Shown: piece by piece, positions 1 to 9,035 of the stretch
How the letters are laid out: every line of letters begins with the position of its first letter
How positions within the stretch are numbered: the first letter of the stretch is position 1
From: Schizochytrium sp. TIO01
Lineage: Eukaryota; Sar; Bigyra; Thraustochytrida; Thraustochytriidae
Length of the DNA stretch: 64,000 nt
Assembly: GCA_004764695.1 (NCBI GenBank)
Contig: SMSO01000014.1
Coordinates: 6,624,029-6,688,028 of the forward strand
Direction of reading: 5' to 3'
The notes under the pieces: model-generated
Seen by the model: only the letters and a program-made list of their open reading frames with translations
Database searches by the model: none
What the model was told of the DNA's origin: nothing
Program-made: the position numbers and the translations under genes

Positions 1-3000
1 TGCACGTGCAGCTGCAGCAACAATTTCAGCAGAAACGCCGATCAAAGAGCGCAAGCACAAGTGATGCTGCTACGCACGCATTTGCACCTGAACGCATTGA
101 GAAACTTGAAGCGTTGGGCCCTCACGGAGCAATGGCATTGGATGTATTGCGAGCCGAAGCCGAAACTGAGTTAGACGAGGGTCTTTCAAAACTTGTGCAA
201 CGAGAATTGCAAGTGGAAACCCTAGCCCGCCATCGCCATGCAGCAGCATTAGCATTGGCAGATAAACATGAATTGCGCCATGGATCATGGCGCAAATACT
301 GGGCAATTAGCGACCAAGATGACAATAACAACATTAGCGAAACTGATGAAGATCTAGAGGTAGCTGCAGTGGCAGAAGAGGAGGAGGAAGAAGAAGATGA
401 TACCTTTGATAAAGCTGGCAAGTCTAGCAAGCCAAAGCAAACGCCACGCAAACGAGGTTCTACCAAAACTGTCTCGAAAGAAAGTGACAATGAGTCTGAA
501 CAGGCCATGGAAGTTGATGGGTCCGACGAAGAGGACAAGAATAGCGACGAAGACGGAGACGAGGAAGCGGATGATGACAGTGAGGAAGAGGTTACACAGG
601 CAGAGCAGAACCTGCTGAAACTCATGTCTAATGATGATGATGATGACGATGATGAAACCTACTCATTGGAGGAAGAAGCCCAAGAGCTTTTGGACCTTGA
701 CGAAGAGGAGGTTGCCGAACACCGACGCCTTTTTCCTGAGGGTGAATACCAGGGAACCACAGAGCGGATGATATTGACTCAAGATATGGAGCGTTCTGTC
801 GAAGAAGTTGTACAAGAGATGCTAAGCCGACCTGCAAATCGATCAAGTCAAAATATGCGTCACCGTCTTGGCACCGAACAAGTGGACGCTGCTGACGAGG
901 AGCAAGATGATGAGGAGGAAGAAGAGAAGAAAAAGGTCGAGGATAAGAAGAAGGCAACAGAAGACGAGGAACAAGAAGAAGAAGAGGAGCAAGAAGAAAT
1001 TGAAACCAAACGGCCCAGGGTAAGCGCACGAACTCGTGCTCGTAAGGGAAACACCAGGGATAAGGAAAAAGAAAAGGTGAAGGAGAAGGAGAAAGAGAAG
1101 GAGAAGGAGAAGGAGAAGGAGCGCGAGGAAGTTGTGGAGGACATAGAGCCTGATGAGGATGAGGAAAACATGAAGCTTTTGACCTCAAATCTGCCAGTGA
1201 TTCCACAAAAGGATCTCACTGCTCGAGTTAAAGCATATGCTACCCTTGCTCGCACTGTGCGCGCCGCTTGTGATGCACGCAGTGGGGAGTCTCTTGCAAG
1301 GGTTCCACCACGCCTAGTACCAGCTTCCGCTCTACAATCATTCTATCCTCATCAAGAAACCGCCCTGGATTGGTTAGCATCAATGCATAAGCGGCACTTG
1401 AGCGCAGTTCTTGCTGACGAACGTGGCTTGGGCAAGGAAGTTGTAGTTGCTCACTTCCTTGCTTTGCTTGCAGGTGAAGCCGGCCAATGGGGTCCTCATC
1501 TTATTGTCACAACTCCACAACGCGCGTTCCAATGGCGTCTGCTTCTTTTACAAAATTGTCCTGCGCTTCGGGTCTCACGCAAACTCCCGAATAAGTCTGA
1601 CTTTGCGTCTGTGCCCAATGTCCTTATTCTAACGCAAGAAGAGACGGCTACGCAAGAGGAGGTTCTTCGCCGTCAAACGTGGTATACCATTGTGTGGGAT
1701 CTAGTAGACACCTCGAAGTTACAAGTTGCGAGTTCACAAGACAACAATAGCAATGGGCAACCGGAGGACGATGACGACGACGAAGAAGAAGATGCGATTG
1801 GAGAGCCTGAACCCGAAGTTGTTGTGCGCAGCCTTCCGCTATTGCGCTGTAAGTCGCGCATTGTTGTAAGTGCAAGTGAGGCAGACACGAAGGCCAACGC
1901 AACGAATATTGCCTTTTTCCTCATACCATTTGTTTTTCTTGGCAGCTCAAGTAAAGTTCGACAATGGGCTTCAAAGAAATCTGCAAACTCATGGCGGGAT
2001 TGCGTGCAGGCGTTTACGTTATCCCGTACAGCAGAGGATATTTCTGGGATTGACGATATAGACGTTGACCGGGAGACAAAGAACTTTGCACCTACTTCGT
2101 ACCAGGCCCTTTGTCGTGACACCTTATTATCAGCTTACAACCAACACATTCAAAAGTTGACTCCTCGGGGTAATCGTGATGTTAAGACTCGGTACCAAAG
2201 TATTTATAGCATGTGCCTTTTCACCGTGGGTTGTCATCCCGATGCATTGTTTGCGCATCCCAAATTAAGCTGTTTTGCGATGCCGTCGATAGCGGCAGCT
2301 TATAGGAAGTGCATTTATCCTATCACCGACATTGTTCAGGTACCAAGTCAGAAACTCATAGGATACTTTGGGTTGTGCGAAGCCTTTCCTCTATCAGACT
2401 ATACGCTAGAGAACTTAAGGAAGGCCGGTCTAAGTTTAGATAGACTACGTGCTGTTTTTCCAAATGTTTCCGCTGAGCCTGGATTTGAAGTGGCATTTGA
2501 CATTAATGGTGATGTACAGGGCGGAAATGATAACAAGTCTGAAATACAGCACTCCCGTTCCAAACAACGCAAAAATCTCACTTTCCTGTTCCCGTCGATT
2601 GTATCATCACGTACTTTGCCTCTATCTTCTCGCCTAAAAACTTCGTTGGCTGCAAGAACACAAATTCCCATTTTGGACCGATCAATGGCTGCAGCACTCA
2701 ATGTTAAGCCATCCTCCAAGACCCCACTCGCAGTCATGGAAGAGGATCTTAAGAAAAGGTTCGTGGACAATGTTCTTTCTGATGTTGCAGCTCTACCTCT
2801 GCTGGAGCGTTTGAATGTAGCGCCATGTGTCTCCATTATGGGTGATGCTTTTGCCGAGTCAAGTATGCAAGCCTTATTACAGTCTCCCGAAGACTTTCGT
2901 CCAAAGCTTTCAGGGATGATCAAATCACTCCCGGATATTCTTGAGCGCCTGCTCTCTCTTGATTACGGAACTCGAAAAATACTCTTGGTTGCTCATAACG

Positions 3001-6000
3001 AAATTCTCCTTGAGCCGGCGTCCGCAATTCTTACTGCCTCTTCAATTCGTTACATTCGAGTGGAGGGATCTAGTTCTTCTGATTCTATTACGGTTTCTAT
3101 TCGAAAATTTGCAACCTCACCTGAATTGCGAGTTCTTATATCTTCCGTTCGGGATATGGATGCGTTGTTGAATGCCGAGATGGACATTGAACATGGTCTG
3201 GGAACCCTGAGTGCAGTAGTGGTATTAGACGAACCGGGGGTTGGATCAACAGAAGACCCTTTAACTGACCGCATCGATGCTATAGCCTTGGCTCATGCGC
3301 GCTGTAGAACTCTACGGGGTGACCCAGAACAGGTTTTTTATGTTGAAGATTTGCAAGTTGATTTTGATTTGCCACCCGAAGGGCCTGAAGTTGTACTGCA
3401 AGAAATTGCTGAATCTAAGATGGACAACAACAAAGTAGATAGCAAATCAGATAATGGGAAAGCGCCAGTGAAGTCTCGCCAACCAAAGGTGATGGATTTG
3501 AGTGGTGTGACGGCTGCTCTGGAAAGGGTCCGAAAACGTGTAAACGAAGAGGAGCCTATCAATTCACTAATCAAACGTTCCATCGATGAGTTTCTTGGAC
3601 GTGCACCTGATCCTCCTGAATTTGGGGTGCCAGGGAAGTATTTCTGCTGCTCTCATGGGGTGGTTCTGGAAGAGCGTGATGTGAGCGTTGAAGAGGTATT
3701 GGAACGTACGGCACAGGCCGTTGTAAACAATGAAATCGAGGTAGTGGTGGACGAAGAGGAGATTTTGTCTTCCCGAGTTCTGTTCCGAACGTCTGATTTA
3801 GGGTTTGACGAGGACGAGGAAGAAGAGGAGGACGAGGACGAGGAAGAGGATGAAGAGGAGGATAGCGATCAAGTCACATCAACAAAGAATAAGACTTCAG
3901 ACACTTTAACTACCATACCTACTTCTCACTCTACTTCAACCATTCCAGCTGCCACGGGCCCCACTGAAGCTAGCGAATCATCATCGTCTTCCTCTTCCAA
4001 GCATGGTGCAGATGTATCTTCTGCAGCCACTACTACAGGTAATGCGAATAAGAATAACAAAGAAAATGAAGGAGGTAGCAATTCAGATCTTCTTCGTCAA
4101 CAGGTTGAAACATTTCTTGCGGAAAGTTTGCGACCTCGAAAACTTACAAGCGATGAACTGCTTGAAATTGTGCGTGAGCCAGATACTCTGTCAGCATATG
4201 TTCAGCAATTTCGCGATGCTTCGCAGGGTGCAAGGCTGCTCATTGCTGACACGCGACGCTTAAATCGAGAGCTCTTTGTCCCAAGTGTGATCGAGGACGC
4301 TATGGTGGATGATAGTATATCTGCTGCTTCACATGTTAGTATTGCGACGTCACAGCCTGCAGATGCCTTGATGTCTGAAATCCGTTGGCTAAAGGAGATT
4401 GAATCAGAAGAGGCCCTCTTTTACGACATCGACCCGAAATTGTCCAAAGAATCAAACATTGAGCGTCTGTTAGTTCAGTTCGAGAATGATGAAAGAGTTG
4501 TTGGTGCATCTTCACATGTCTATGGGCCTCCAAGTGACTTTGCCAACTCCAACCAAATAGAGGAGCCCTTGCCAAGCGCCCCTCCAATGCTGGGTGTTTA
4601 TCCAACTCAAATATCTTCCATGAGTAACGGGTTCCAGGGCAATGCGCACACAACACCTGGTGTACCTCAACGCCCAAAGTTTGCAGTCAGCTTCATGAAG
4701 CAGCGCATTGTAGCTATGTCTACTGATATTTCGACTGTAGAAATTGAGCCACTTAAGCGTCGTAGCGCAAGTATTGATAGTGATAGTACGGTGTCGAAGA
4801 AACGCAAGGTAGACAAGAAGGCCGTTCAAGCTAACGGGAGTATCGGCGACTCTCGCATTGCTAATGCTGCCAGTACTGCTGCCAACGCAGCTAGTGCCGC
4901 TGCTAGTGTAAACACTGCTGCTATTAATAGTGCTTCCGTTGCTAATGCTGTACGTTTAGGTTCCTCTGTTGAGTCTGAACTCTTGCTGGACGAGGATGAA
5001 GAAAACATTGTTGTGGTGCCTGTTCCTGTGGTAGCTTCGTCCAGCAAGGAGGTTGACTGGAATATCCAGGTGCCAAAAATTAAAAGTCGTCTCAAGGGTT
5101 CACAGAAGAAATCTGGCAAGGCTGCAAACACAACTGAAGATGATAACATTACTGATTCATCATGGAGTTCCTGGGAAGAATCTGCTCTGCTTCGTGCTGT
5201 TGAGGTGTTTGGGCCTAACTGGAACCTGGTTCACAATCTTCTATCTTCCCCTCTGTCACCAGTCCACTCTGTTCAGCAAATTATTGATCATTACCACACC
5301 GTGCGCTCTAGGTATAAGACGGCTTCGCTATCACCGTGGGTGTTAAAGCATGAACGAACCGTTCGAGATATTGCCCCCTGGGCAAGCCACCCTCTACACA
5401 AGACTGACTTGCTGTTGTACGCCCCTAGCCCATTCAAGGCTTTTGAAGCATCAAGCGAGGGTAGCATTTCTCATAGGCTTGACACAAGTGACCTGGAAAT
5501 GCGTCGCAAAGCAGGTTTGCCCTCTTCGCTTGGTCAGCACGGGCTCAGCAGCTATCCGCATTCCTTAGCGTTACCTGATGCAAAGAAAAGTGAGCGTGAG
5601 AAGCTGTCCAAGTTATCTTCAATTATTATATCTTCAGCACCAACTACTCAGCCTCGAAACAGTATTGCTTCTGGGAGCTCAATCGATCCTGCAAGCAATG
5701 CACCAACTGGAACTGGAACAACGACAGCTGCATCGTCTTCCTCTTCTTCTGCTTTGCTATCATCTTCAAGTAACTTTACTCCATTGCCGATGGAAGACCC
5801 AGTACCTTTACACTCACGTCGCGAAAATCTGTCACAAGCACTGCCAAGCTCTATAACCCACTTCCAGGGTCCCTTTGGCAGCCTTGTGCAGCAACTGATC
5901 AAGCGCCAGGCTGAGCAATCTCATGCGAAGACCGGCAGTAATAATAGTAGCAGCGGCAGTTTGCATCATCCCCACGTGCACCAACGTAGCATGAGTATCA

Positions 6001-6779
6001 GCAGCAATTCAAGTAGTACATATAGCGGCCGTCATTCTAATGCTTCTAGACACCATTCACAATCTCCAAGCCAGTATTCTCAACATGCCAAATCGTCTTC
6101 CGTGTCAAGTAGTTCTCACCCGGTCGCATACACTCAGCCCCACAATCAGCACCCTTCTCCTCATCAACAGCCACAAATGACAGGTCATCAGCACCAACAA
6201 CAGCAACAGCAACCACATCATTCACCCGTGCAACAGCAGTCTCAGCAGTCTCAACAGCACATGCATCACCAACGACAAACTCACTCATCTGTCCCTCCGA
6301 GCGGACGACCAATGCCACATCCTCCATCCCCTACGATGTCAGGCGCTAATAGGCAAATGACTGGTAATCCCGGTATGCGGAGTCCCCATGGAGGTCATAC
6401 TATGGGAAATATGAGCCCCACAAGGGGTATGTCTCGTACACCATCTCAAACTCTGAGCCACCAACCTCAACATATGCACCGACAAGTGTCTCCCGGTCAG
6501 TATTCTGCCCACCATCCGGGTACGCCAGGGCGAAGTGCGAACTACTCTCAGCGCCCGATGCATGCACAACAGCATCCACAACAACCACCCGCTCAGCACC
6601 AACGCCATCCTGGACAGCCTCAACCGCCTCAACATCCACAACAACAGGCTTATATCCAGCAGCAGCAACAACAACCTCATCATCATCAGCAACAGCAGCA
6701 GCAGCAACAACAACAAATGCATCCTCAGCAACAGCAGCAACAAAGAAGGTCTCCTTCAAGTGGAAGCGGCTATCACTAA
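1..6779 (+). CDS. SWR1/EP400-class SNF2-family protein with eroded ATPase and SANT domain (5' partial)
   Basis: The reading frame is open to the left edge and its first possible initiator here (position 6) is GTG, so the true start lies upstream. About 2,257 codons are visible, without introns. After acidic, Lys/Glu-rich linkers (residues ~110-400), residues ~445-600 align with the SNF2 N-lobe. The stretch around GQWGPHLIV is typical of SWR1/SRCAP/EP400 proteins. Motif I reads DERGLGKE (~471-478) where active enzymes have DEMGLGKT, and the DEAH position reads WDLVD (~564-568). A C-lobe-like segment (~975-1130) lacks the usual arginine-finger motif. A SANT/Myb domain follows at ~1718-1770, then a Ser/His/Gln-rich tail with polyglutamine runs (~2030-2257). 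This order (SNF2, SANT, polyQ) recalls EP400/Domino. Inference: a non-catalytic scaffold of a NuA4/SWR1-type complex in the nucleus. The family call is good; the loss of catalysis is inferred from motifs. Confidence 0.8.
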   Translation, partial: HVQLQQQFQQKRRSKSASTSDAATHAFAPERIEKLEALGPHGAMALDVLRAEAETELDEGLSKLVQRELQVETLARHRHAAALALADKHELRHGSWRKYWAISDQDDNNNISETDEDLEVAAVAEEEEEEEDDTFDKAGKSSKPKQTPRKRGSTKTVSKESDNESEQAMEVDGSDEEDKNSDEDGDEEADDDSEEEVTQAEQNLLKLMSNDDDDDDDETYSLEEEAQELLDLDEEEVAEHRRLFPEGEYQGTTERMILTQDMERSVEEVVQEMLSRPANRSSQNMRHRLGTEQVDAADEEQDDEEEEEKKKVEDKKKATEDEEQEEEEEQEEIETKRPRVSARTRARKGNTRDKEKEKVKEKEKEKEKEKEKEREEVVEDIEPDEDEENMKLLTSNLPVIPQKDLTARVKAYATLARTVRAACDARSGESLARVPPRLVPASALQSFYPHQETALDWLASMHKRHLSAVLADERGLGKEVVVAHFLALLAGEAGQWGPHLIVTTPQRAFQWRLLLLQNCPALRVSRKLPNKSDFASVPNVLILTQEETATQEEVLRRQTWYTIVWDLVDTSKLQVASSQDNNSNGQPEDDDDDEEEDAIGEPEPEVVVRSLPLLRCKSRIVVSASEADTKANATNIAFFLIPFVFLGSSSKVRQWASKKSANSWRDCVQAFTLSRTAEDISGIDDIDVDRETKNFAPTSYQALCRDTLLSAYNQHIQKLTPRGNRDVKTRYQSIYSMCLFTVGCHPDALFAHPKLSCFAMPSIAAAYRKCIYPITDIVQVPSQKLIGYFGLCEAFPLSDYTLENLRKAGLSLDRLRAVFPNVSAEPGFEVAFDINGDVQGGNDNKSEIQHSRSKQRKNLTFLFPSIVSSRTLPLSSRLKTSLAARTQIPILDRSMAAALNVKPSSKTPLAVMEEDLKKRFVDNVLSDVAALPLLERLNVAPCVSIMGDAFAESSMQALLQSPEDFRPKLSGMIKSLPDILERLLSLDYGTRKILLVAHNEILLEPASAILTASSIRYIRVEGSSSSDSITVSIRKFATSPELRVLISSVRDMDALLNAEMDIEHGLGTLSAVVVLDEPGVGSTEDPLTDRIDAIALAHARCRTLRGDPEQVFYVEDLQVDFDLPPEGPEVVLQEIAESKMDNNKVDSKSDNGKAPVKSRQPKVMDLSGVTAALERVRKRVNEEEPINSLIKRSIDEFLGRAPDPPEFGVPGKYFCCSHGVVLEERDVSVEEVLERTAQAVVNNEIEVVVDEEEILSSRVLFRTSDLGFDEDEEEEEDEDEEEDEEEDSDQVTSTKNKTSDTLTTIPTSHSTSTIPAATGPTEASESSSSSSSKHGADVSSAATTTGNANKNNKENEGGSNSDLLRQQVETFLAESLRPRKLTSDELLEIVREPDTLSAYVQQFRDASQGARLLIADTRRLNRELFVPSVIEDAMVDDSISAASHVSIATSQPADALMSEIRWLKEIESEEALFYDIDPKLSKESNIERLLVQFENDERVVGASSHVYGPPSDFANSNQIEEPLPSAPPMLGVYPTQISSMSNGFQGNAHTTPGVPQRPKFAVSFMKQRIVAMSTDISTVEIEPLKRRSASIDSDSTVSKKRKVDKKAVQANGSIGDSRIANAASTAANAASAAASVNTAAINSASVANAVRLGSSVESELLLDEDEENIVVVPVPVVASSSKEVDWNIQVPKIKSRLKGSQKKSGKAANTTEDDNITDSSWSSWEESALLRAVEVFGPNWNLVHNLLSSPLSPVHSVQQIIDHYHTVRSRYKTASLSPWVLKHERTVRDIAPWASHPLHKTDLLLYAPSPFKAFEASSEGSISHRLDTSDLEMRRKAGLPSSLGQHGLSSYPHSLALPDAKKSEREKLSKLSSIIISSAPTTQPRNSIASGSSIDPASNAPTGTGTTTAASSSSSSALLSSSSNFTPLPMEDPVPLHSRRENLSQALPSSITHFQGPFGSLVQQLIKRQAEQSHAKTGSNNSSSGSLHHPHVHQRSMSISSNSSSTYSGRHSNASRHHSQSPSQYSQHAKSSSVSSSSHPVAYTQPHNQHPSPHQQPQMTGHQHQQQQQQPHHSPVQQQSQQSQQHMHHQRQTHSSVPPSGRPMPHPPSPTMSGANRQMTGNPGMRSPHGGHTMGNMSPTRGMSRTPSQTLSHQPQHMHRQVSPGQYSAHHPGTPGRSANYSQRPMHAQQHPQQPPAQHQRHPGQPQPPQHPQQQAYIQQQQQQPHHHQQQQQQQQQQMHPQQQQQQRRSPSSGSGYH

Positions 6780-7122
6780 TGATGATAGGATAGGTACAAT
6801 GGCGTGATAATAATCAGAATCCTCCCGATTTGGGTTTGTCTGATGGGTGAATGACTGAATAATTGAAATATGAAACGAACAACCTTGCATTTTTATTCAA
6901 ATGAGTTGTAGCTCGTTAGGTGATTTCAAGCAAATTTGGACTGTAATTAGTTGGGTAGCTAGCATGTTAAAGTAAAAGCTACAGACTAGCTAGGTGTCAA
7001 CTACTTTTTTTTGTGTACTACCTCGACTTCGTAATATTAAAAAGCATGAATACTTTTTGAGATTAAATTAATAATTTTTGAATACCCAATTGTAATGCAG
7101 AATGTAGTGAAGATCTTTGTTC
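6780..7122. other. Convergent 3' intergenic region
   Basis: AT-rich spacer between the SWR1/EP400-like stop and the stop of the oppositely oriented oxidase gene. It presumably carries both 3' UTRs. I see no ORF, RNA gene or repeat of note. Confidence 0.5.
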
Positions 7123-9035
7123 TTAGTTTTTATTGGTAACGCCTCCTTGTCGGTCAGGTTTAAATGCTAAAAGAACTTCTTGGACAAGACCTTGATCTAA
7201 TTTGTTCTCATCTTTGTTTGCTGAAGCGTCGCCAACAACTTCGTGGGCCAGGATCTTGCTGAGCATTGGTCCTTCCATGATTCCGTGAGGTCCCAGACCC
7301 TAATGATTGAAAGAAATGTGGTTTTGGTGAAACATCGCGTGTAAGTAATCTGTACTATCTGCAATATTTGTTGCAAGTTGCATGATGCATGCTTGCGAAA
7401 AAACAAAACAAAAAGAGATTCAACGATACTGGAAGATGAGAAATAGAAAAAACTTACTGTAAAAAGCCATACATTTTCAAGACCAAAATTCCCAAGCTCG
7501 CCAACTAGGGGAAGCCCATCTTTACTGAATGGCACTGTTTCGTAAAGAATAGTATTAAAAGTGAATGAGTTAAGTACACATATTCCCATCAGAAGTCGTT
7601 AGTCCAAGTGAAACCTGGTGCACATTGAAGAAATCTTCTAGCAAGAAATGCAGCGAGCGCTCAATTAAGAACTCTTCAAACAGTAAAGAAAAAGAAACTT
7701 ACTTGGTCCACTCCACATACCATCGACTTTGTAGTCCTTCAATTTAGGACAAAACTCATAGACGTGCTCCTGGTTTCGTCTGGCGCCCGCTACATCAGTC
7801 GCATAGATGCGTTGGTGGTCGTCAGAATCATGGCATGGAATGCGATCACCTCCAAACATCACTCGGCCGTCGTGAAGACGTCGACCATATGCATGACGAA
7901 CAAATTGATGTCCATCGAAATCATGTGTTGTAAACTTGGGTAAGTCGCTGCGGCTGCCTTCACGAAATTCGTGTTGAAAAGCGAGATGGGACTCCTCAAT
8001 GAAGATGACGTGATTCATGAAGTGCGGCGGGGTTTCCTCAGTTACCCAAATTTGACCCTTCACAGGTGTAACAGGAATGTCGATATTTAACAATTGACCT
8101 ACTTTGGCAGACCACGCGCCGGGACAAAGAACCAACTTTTTGCAGCGCAGTACAAGACCATTGCGTGTCTTAATCTCATATCGACCGTCGTCAGAAATTA
8201 GCTTGGCGATGCTGACTACTTCAGCACCCTCGTGTATCATAACGTCCACCTTGTTTGCAGAAGCTGCATCTGCAAAAGCGTGTGTGCAAGATGCAGCATC
8301 AACATATCCGCTTTTACGTGTCAGGATTGCAGCGCAAGCTTTGCCTCCTGCAAGACTTGGCTCCTGAGCTATAATTTCTTCGTGGGAGCCCAAAAACTCC
8401 ATTTCACTGTTGGTGCCTGCGTTTTCAACTTGGTGACGGAGACTAGTAGCTTCTGCAGCATTTAGAGCCAACGTGAGAGCTCCGCTTTGTACGTATTTGC
8501 AATTGAAGCCCTCCGCCTCAAGTTTCTTGATGACAGCTGTAGTTCCACGACGAAGTTCCGGAAAGAGTCCTCGTCCACCATCATATATCGTGCCAGCCGA
8601 GAGGCCAGATGCCTCGGCACCAACAAAACCACGATCTAAAAGTACGACGGAGCTTGAATTCTCTTTGTACAAATGAGTTTTGGAATTTGAAGATGTGTTC
8701 AAAAGCTTCCCTAGGTGATAGGCTGTTGCTGTCCCAGCAATACCAGCGCCAACTACGACGACCTCTGCATTCACATAACTTTGTTCGGAAGCACTCTGTC
8801 TAGAGTTAGACGTCGTCCCTGATGATGCGACAGACTTTAGTCTTGGTGCTGAATTGGGAGCACCAGTGCTGCCAGAGTCTGTGCTCTGAGCGTCATCTTC
8901 AGGAGCTCCATTTCTGGAGCGTGCTATGACATCGTCCCAATCAATATCTGGGGCAGGGTGCGTCTTCCAAAACAGCGCTGCTCCGCCAACAAGCGCCAGA
9001 GTGAGCCCTCCAGCAGCCGCGAGACGGCCCTTCAT
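7123..9035 (-). CDS. FAD-dependent amine/D-amino-acid oxidase family protein, three exons
   Basis: The minus-strand gene is reconstructed as exon 1 9035-7703, exon 2 7534-7458 and exon 3 7299-7123, giving about 528 residues. Both introns have GTAAGT donors and AG acceptors. Joining them restores the family's C-terminal pattern: WSGPM, PFSKDGLPLVGEL, then TGLGPHGIMEGPM. Left unspliced, exon 1 runs into an intronic stop at 7665. The ATG at 9035 begins a protein with a hydrophobic segment (~residues 8-24), so a membrane anchor or signal is likely. A Rossmann FAD motif, VVVGAGIAGTATAYHLG, starts at about residue 93. Members of this DAO-fold family oxidise amines or amino acids, giving an imino product and H2O2 (or pass electrons to another acceptor). 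The substrate cannot be read from sequence. It diverges from the WDR81-like gene, with ~890 bp between them. Confidence 0.82.
7459..7533 (-). other. Exon 2 of the FAD oxidase (core of the exon)
   Basis: This 77-nt exon (7534-7458 on the minus strand) enters after a CAG acceptor, completes a split Met codon, encodes 25 further residues centred on DGLPLVGELG, and ends before GTAAGT. It is a micro-exon that automated ORF calling would miss. Confidence 0.75.

Follow-up and report, generated by a model that had tools for sequence, protein, structure and literature searches.

What would a thraustochytrid do with a chromatin-remodelling motor of the SWR1/EP400 class from which most catalytic residues have gone? 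The question is raised by a gene at the start of a 64,000-nucleotide stretch of DNA (the window, G000:C13:6624029-6688028) from Schizochytrium sp. TIO01 (genome of 64.06 Mb in 37 contigs), the one genome in which this gene was analysed. It is a single open frame of 2,539 residues counted from the first ATG (G000:C13:6623188), which lies 841 bases upstream of window base 1. Its domains follow the order HSA, acidic stretch, SNF2 N-lobe, acidic insert, unrecognised middle, inter-lobe region, C-lobe, SANT/Myb and Q/H/P-rich tail (Table 1). We propose, with a probability of roughly 0.76, that its product is a platform protein like EP400 or Eaf1, belonging to a histone acetyltransferase complex of the NuA4 type, and that its SWR1-class motor is dead and H2A.Z exchange is left to SWR1.

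Both lobes of the motor can still be recognised. Pfam matches SNF2 in the protein (E=1.8e-7), and against an SNF2 profile of 94 proteins (88 from public contigs and six from the same genome) the N-lobe (residues 715-860) scores 46.7 bits and the C-lobe (1216-1425) 15.7 bits, the best of 1000 shuffles reaching 2.4 and 1.0, respectively; with a profile of eight same-genome proteins the C-lobe scores 17.3 bits, compared with 6.8 for the best of 1000 shuffles. When the protein is aligned with 61 SNF2 proteins, 56 columns are near-invariant (at least 90% identical), and it retains only 18 of these; the minimum among the 61 other rows is 80% and the median 98%. The retained positions include ADE.GLGK with the Walker A lysine, Q732, W792 and the motif II aspartate D847. 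The Walker A threonine has gone (T760E), as have the rest of DEAx including the motif II glutamate, the GTP of motif III, the motif V glycines and most of motif VI. All 88 comparison SNF2 proteins have GxGK[TS], 81 have DE[AGCS][HQ] and 73 have R..R[IL]GQ; these loci were picked by patterns with ADEMGLG or LADEMGL, which biases the first motif I residues and not the threonine. An initial annotation of the window had read GKE for GKT in motif I and WDLVD at the DEAH box, and both readings are borne out. It had also found no arginine finger in the C-lobe: neither of two alignments retains both motif VI arginines, but R1371 can be set against the first of them in one alignment and falls elsewhere in the other. 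By established SF2 (superfamily 2) enzymology, a domain with catalytic losses of this kind would be unable to hydrolyse ATP, and we infer that this motor is catalytically dead and lacks ATPase activity. The earlier suggestion that the ATPase may survive only as a fold agrees with two lobes that exceed all their shuffles and have lost their catalytic residues.

An AlphaFold2 model built with a 62-row alignment has lobe cores near a pLDDT (predicted local distance difference test) of 90, a mean of 65.8 and a pTM (predicted template modelling score) of 0.59; it is compatible with an SNF2 fold, which the alignment of other SNF2 proteins partly imposes. When this model was searched with Foldseek, the first match was the EP400 chain of TIP60 (9cac_A).

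The class of the motor is supported by a 13-row tree of both lobes, in which the protein joins SWR1, SRCAP and EP400 (support 98/99), in line with the SWR1-class context noticed earlier in the N-lobe. Matches in the PDB point in particular to EP400, which is best for the whole protein (3.7e-26, followed by SRCAP at 3.1e-21 and SWR1 at 6.8e-11) and for the HSA domain alone (53.2 bits, followed by SRCAP at 44.7 and EAF1 at 25.5). The HSA domain, which lies upstream of the window and so outside the view of the initial annotation, is an addition to the protein described there (Pfam 4.9e-10 in a fragment scan, 2.6e-9 in a genome-wide search); it is 37% identical to that of EP400, 31% to that of SRCAP and 30% to that of the SWR1 encoded in the same genome. 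The SANT domain and Q-rich part reported before are both present, the former as a Pfam SANT/Myb match (1.9e-6, fragment scan) and the latter as a tail of 29% Q, 15% P and 13% H. In non-eukaryote collections, no relative was found among 364 pattern matches to the motor region in viral contigs, 20 HSA alignment matches in viral contigs or 58 HSA alignment matches in genome contigs.

A second, intact SWR1 ATPase, for which the initial annotation had proposed a search, is encoded by a separate gene at G000:C4:1074000-1083500. Its motor motifs are intact (GKT, DEAH, TGTP, RAHRIGQ), it matches SRCAP best (831.7 bits; SWR1 707.8, EP400 481.3), and together with the gene studied here it accounts for the two matches of a genome-wide Pfam HSA search with four candidates scored. 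An intact, HSA-bearing, SRCAP-like SWR1 therefore exists beside the platform candidate; a scan covering 3,167 of its 3,370 residues gave no SANT match. The genome also holds the NuA4 parts MYST (two loci), Tra1, DMAP1, Eaf6 and MRG, and the SWR1-side subunit YL1/Swc2. A split of SWR1 and NuA4 functions between two genes, as suggested earlier, is fitted by the intact SWR1, but the NuA4 side of that split depends on a complex membership that, like the use of the motor fold, we infer.

The intact SWR1 has peculiarities of its own. Between its HSA domain and motor, at residues about 495-1031, it carries eight copies of an acidic module, [ML]S.EELxxxYG, and SRCAP has one similar stretch at the matching place (EGELSMEELLQQYAG); the eight copies are possibly multiplied binding units. 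C-terminal to the motor and in the same frame, residues about 2081-2226 include a WW domain (8.3e-7) together with two weaker matches, one F-box-like (6e-4) and one to Agenet (0.036), a combination that seems unusual for SWR1.

The proposed mechanism borrows from complexes of known structure. In yeast NuA4, the Eaf1 HSA helix runs across Arp4/Act1 and the Eaf1 SANT domain sits on the FAT domain of Tra1 (PMC9643008); in TIP60 the scaffold is EP400, whose motor and insertion belong to the RUVBL-containing base module and whose SANT domain lies on TRRAP (PMC11995519). By analogy, the HSA helix of the Schizochytrium protein would bind the actin/Arp4/DMAP1 module and its SANT domain would hold Tra1, so that the protein would keep these and the MYST module together. 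The SNF2 domain between HSA and SANT would not hydrolyse ATP and would persist as a two-lobe spacer or docking surface, and H2A.Z exchange would be performed by the separate intact SWR1. The acetyltransferase function of Drosophila DOM-A is independent of its ATPase (PMC7239659), and a Domino motor inserted between HSA and SANT of yeast Eaf1 left function unaffected (PMC7239659, citing Auger 2008; PMC4358907, citing the same work, gives the SWR1 motor as donor). A motor domain can therefore sit in a NuA4 platform without being used. Instead of serving as a spacer or docking surface, the dead motor may be a relic that is slowly being lost.

Several results weigh against the proposed platform. 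Residues 861-1060, which should hold motif III and the brace, score -2.9 against the SNF2 profile, below the best shuffles (5.9), and motif III and the brace are therefore not statistically recognisable; the inter-lobe stretch (1061-1215) obtains no score against that profile, and 113/500 shuffles align with the insertion of the genome's own SWR1 as well as it does (45/500 for the middle region against the same SWR1), neither similarity being significant. AlphaFold2 gave no usable model from the single sequence (pLDDT 34.8), and the alignment-based model superposes poorly on EP400 overall (TM 0.39, root-mean-square deviation 40.9). The SANT domain alone had five weak matches in the PDB, none of them EP400 or EAF1. 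The end branch in the tree is 6.67 changes per column and was flagged as long and of odd composition. Pfam searches did not find EPL1 or Eaf7, and prokaryote controls were also blank, so that absence is not inferable. INO80- and SNF2-type genes usually carry HSA; the Pfam HSA search matched none of them in this genome and is not exhaustive.

These points bear differently on the other explanations. A lineage-specific duplicate of the genome's own SWR1 that lost its motor activity and has a SANT domain would not be an EP400/Eaf1 ortholog, and it could still have a scaffold role. Such a duplicate would lie inside the SWR1 class, as the motor does; of the sequences in the tree, the own SWR1 is the one to which the studied protein is most identical (28%), and in tests within the class a clade with that SWR1 fits as well as the free tree (p-AU, from the approximately unbiased test, 0.5), a clade with EP400 having a p-AU of 0.207. 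The tree does not separate an ancient relationship to EP400 from a more recent duplication of SWR1. We nevertheless consider the duplicate unlikely: the HSA domain is nearer to EP400 than to the own SWR1 or SRCAP, SANT and the Q/P-rich tail take the same places in the domain order as in EP400, no SANT match appeared in the scanned part of the own SWR1, and the HSA search, within its limits, found no other HSA-bearing platform. A divergent SNF2 motor in which unusual residues still allow ATP to be bound or hydrolysed is far less probable. The Walker A lysine, the motif II aspartate and Q732 would be there to serve it, and human EP400 is reported to be active in H2A.Z incorporation (PMC7239659) despite off-consensus motifs III, V and VI; however, the change T760E, at a threonine position of the GxGK[TS] retained throughout the comparison proteins, comes together with the loss of the motif II glutamate, of motifs III and V and of one or both motif VI arginines.

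The least credible explanation is that a frameshift, an assembly error, an in-frame intron or a decaying pseudogene produced the motor's appearance. The unrecognised motif III and brace region, the very long end branch and the slightly better codon usage of one shifted frame in the inter-lobe stretch (0.741 vs 0.696) would suit it. Yet the frame is uninterrupted for all its 2,539 codons, the 711 motor codons contain no stop where composition predicts 36, codon usage is 0.757 vs 0.768 in the own SWR1 (itself within the reference set), HSA and SANT are well preserved, and the substitutions are many and independent. A six-frame SNF2 profile search of window 1-7200 scored the studied frame at 39.0 and 10.1 bits, and all listed matches in other frames were negative; the missing motifs are in none of the other frames. 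We reject frameshift, pseudogene and in-frame intron on the open frame, the codon usage and this search.

Table 1. Features of the dead-motor platform candidate. Positions are those of the window unless a contig is named.
Feature	Position	Residues	Strand	Basis
Gene, in-window part with stop (6777-6779)	1..6779		+	open-frame reading
HSA domain, just outside the window	genome match G000:C13:6623725-6623922	180-245	+	Pfam
Low-complexity acidic/charged stretch, HSA to motor	477..1259	about 440-700	+	reading
SNF2 N-lobe, motifs Q to II; SWR1-class context DWLASMHKRHLSAVLADERGLGKE and QWGPHLIV	1302..1739	715-860	+
Motif I (Walker A), ADERGLGKE, T to E	1413..1439		+	motif reading, alignment
Motif II position, DLVD instead of DEAH/DEAQ (WDLVD, 1695-1709)	1698..1709		+
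Acidic insert shortly past motif II	1725..1838	856-893	+	reading, alignment
Motif III position, SASEAD instead of TGTPLQ	1869..1886		+	alignment; region without profile recognition
Inter-lobe region, at the place of the insertion in SWR1-class proteins	2340..2804	1061-1215	+
SNF2 C-lobe, recognisable until motif V begins	2805..3434	1216-1425	+	profile, model
Motif V position, SSVRDMDALLN instead of STRSGGLGINL	3141..3173		+	alignment
Motif VI region, RIDAIALAHARCR instead of QDRAHRIGQ, at most one of two arginines aligned; LAHARCR at 3288-3308	3270..3308		+
SANT/Myb domain, PF00249	5160..5303	2001-2048	+	Pfam
Q/H/P-rich C-terminal tail	6129..6776	2324-2539	+	composition

The neighbourhood is ordinary. 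A Pfam scan of 8/14 listed open reading frames in window 7665-63269 gave an FAD oxidoreductase, a BEACH protein, a calcineurin-like phosphoesterase, an ODAD1 coiled coil, a WD40 protein, two ARM-repeat proteins and an AAA protein. Elsewhere in the genome, weak SNF2 N-lobe matches (profile 1-166) lie at G000:C6:1022683-1023153 (E 2.7e-6) and G000:C30:3641320-3641796 (4.1e-6), in frames of 838 and 828 residues that are perhaps a duplicated gene. Ten carrier-protein domains follow one another in a single frame of 2172 residues, most of them spaced by about 330 bases (G000:C4:611495-614707), an arrangement that resembles a thraustochytrid polyunsaturated fatty acid synthase.

The usual account of EP400 is that Swr1 and Eaf1 fused or merged (PMC11995519, PMC6089883, PMC4358907), a view that two of these papers (PMC6089883 and PMC4358907) credit to Auger 2008. 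Judged by its sequence, the Schizochytrium gene may represent a halfway stage between animal EP400, in which the motor is kept, and yeast or plant Eaf1, in which it is gone. This permits a tentative proposal, which we hold to be possible rather than probable, that the NuA4 platform ancestrally had an SWR1-type motor and that Eaf1 arose by motor decay and loss, not EP400 by fusion; the Schizochytrium gene would then be a surviving intermediate and human EP400 an earlier stage of the same drift. With what is probably a dead-motor HSA-SANT platform far from animals and fungi, the motor-decay route to Eaf1 can now be tested with public genomes. The gene also raises the question whether the motor fold can have a structural role in NuA4/TIP60 with no ATP being hydrolysed, a point relevant to why DOM-A and EP400 retain their motors.

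Among known systems, a plant study describes three architectures of HSA, ATPase and SANT, and according to it the EAF1 and PIE1 families are not found together outside plants (PMC4358907); p400-like proteins are on record from an amoeba and from fungus-like moulds (PMC6089883). PfEAF1 of P. falciparum is reported to be 4.7 times larger than the homolog in yeast (PMC11036802). The papers listed in searches of the open-access literature included no report of an EP400/Eaf1-type platform whose motor is dead yet still present and no survey of NuA4/SWR1 in stramenopiles, and PMC9236257 yielded nothing on an Eaf1 or EP400 in the parasite that it treats. Human EP400 (p400) has the same order of HSA, SWR1-class motor, post-motor region, SANT and Q/P-rich tail (PMC11995519). 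The statement of the initial annotation that EP400 keeps its ATPase holds for its GKT and DE pair, where the Schizochytrium protein has GKE and DLVD, but in both proteins motifs III, V and VI have moved away from the consensus, much further in the latter. In EP400 (PDB 9cae_A) motif II is DEMQ, motif III IDSPLHN, motif V STHSRTTGINL and motif VI EWCDRIGR, and the counterparts in SRCAP are DEAQ, TGTPLQN, STRSGGVGVNL and DRCHRIGQ; the departures of EP400 at III, V and VI (slight at II), in a protein described as an active ATPase, suggest a relaxed constraint on such a motor.

The likeness to Eaf1/VID21/AtEAF1 of yeast and plants lies in HSA and SANT joined in one protein that lacks a working ATPase, beside a separate SWR1-type remodeller; Eaf1 is given as a protein without an ATPase domain in the plant study (PMC4358907), whereas the Schizochytrium protein retains both lobes between HSA and SANT. 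Drosophila DOM-A is likewise an HSA-motor-SANT platform of a NuA4-type complex with ATPase-independent acetyltransferase function (PMC7239659), but it shares an identical ATPase domain with DOM-B, and DOM-B uses ATP. Plant MOM1 is comparable as a remodeller relative whose SNF2 motifs are decayed and dispensable (PMC2507757); it differs in being CHD3-derived, the Arabidopsis protein has second-lobe motifs only, and that account does not describe it as an HSA/SANT platform. SWR1 and SRCAP share the motor class and the HSA domain with the Schizochytrium protein, and differ from it in that their motor is intact.

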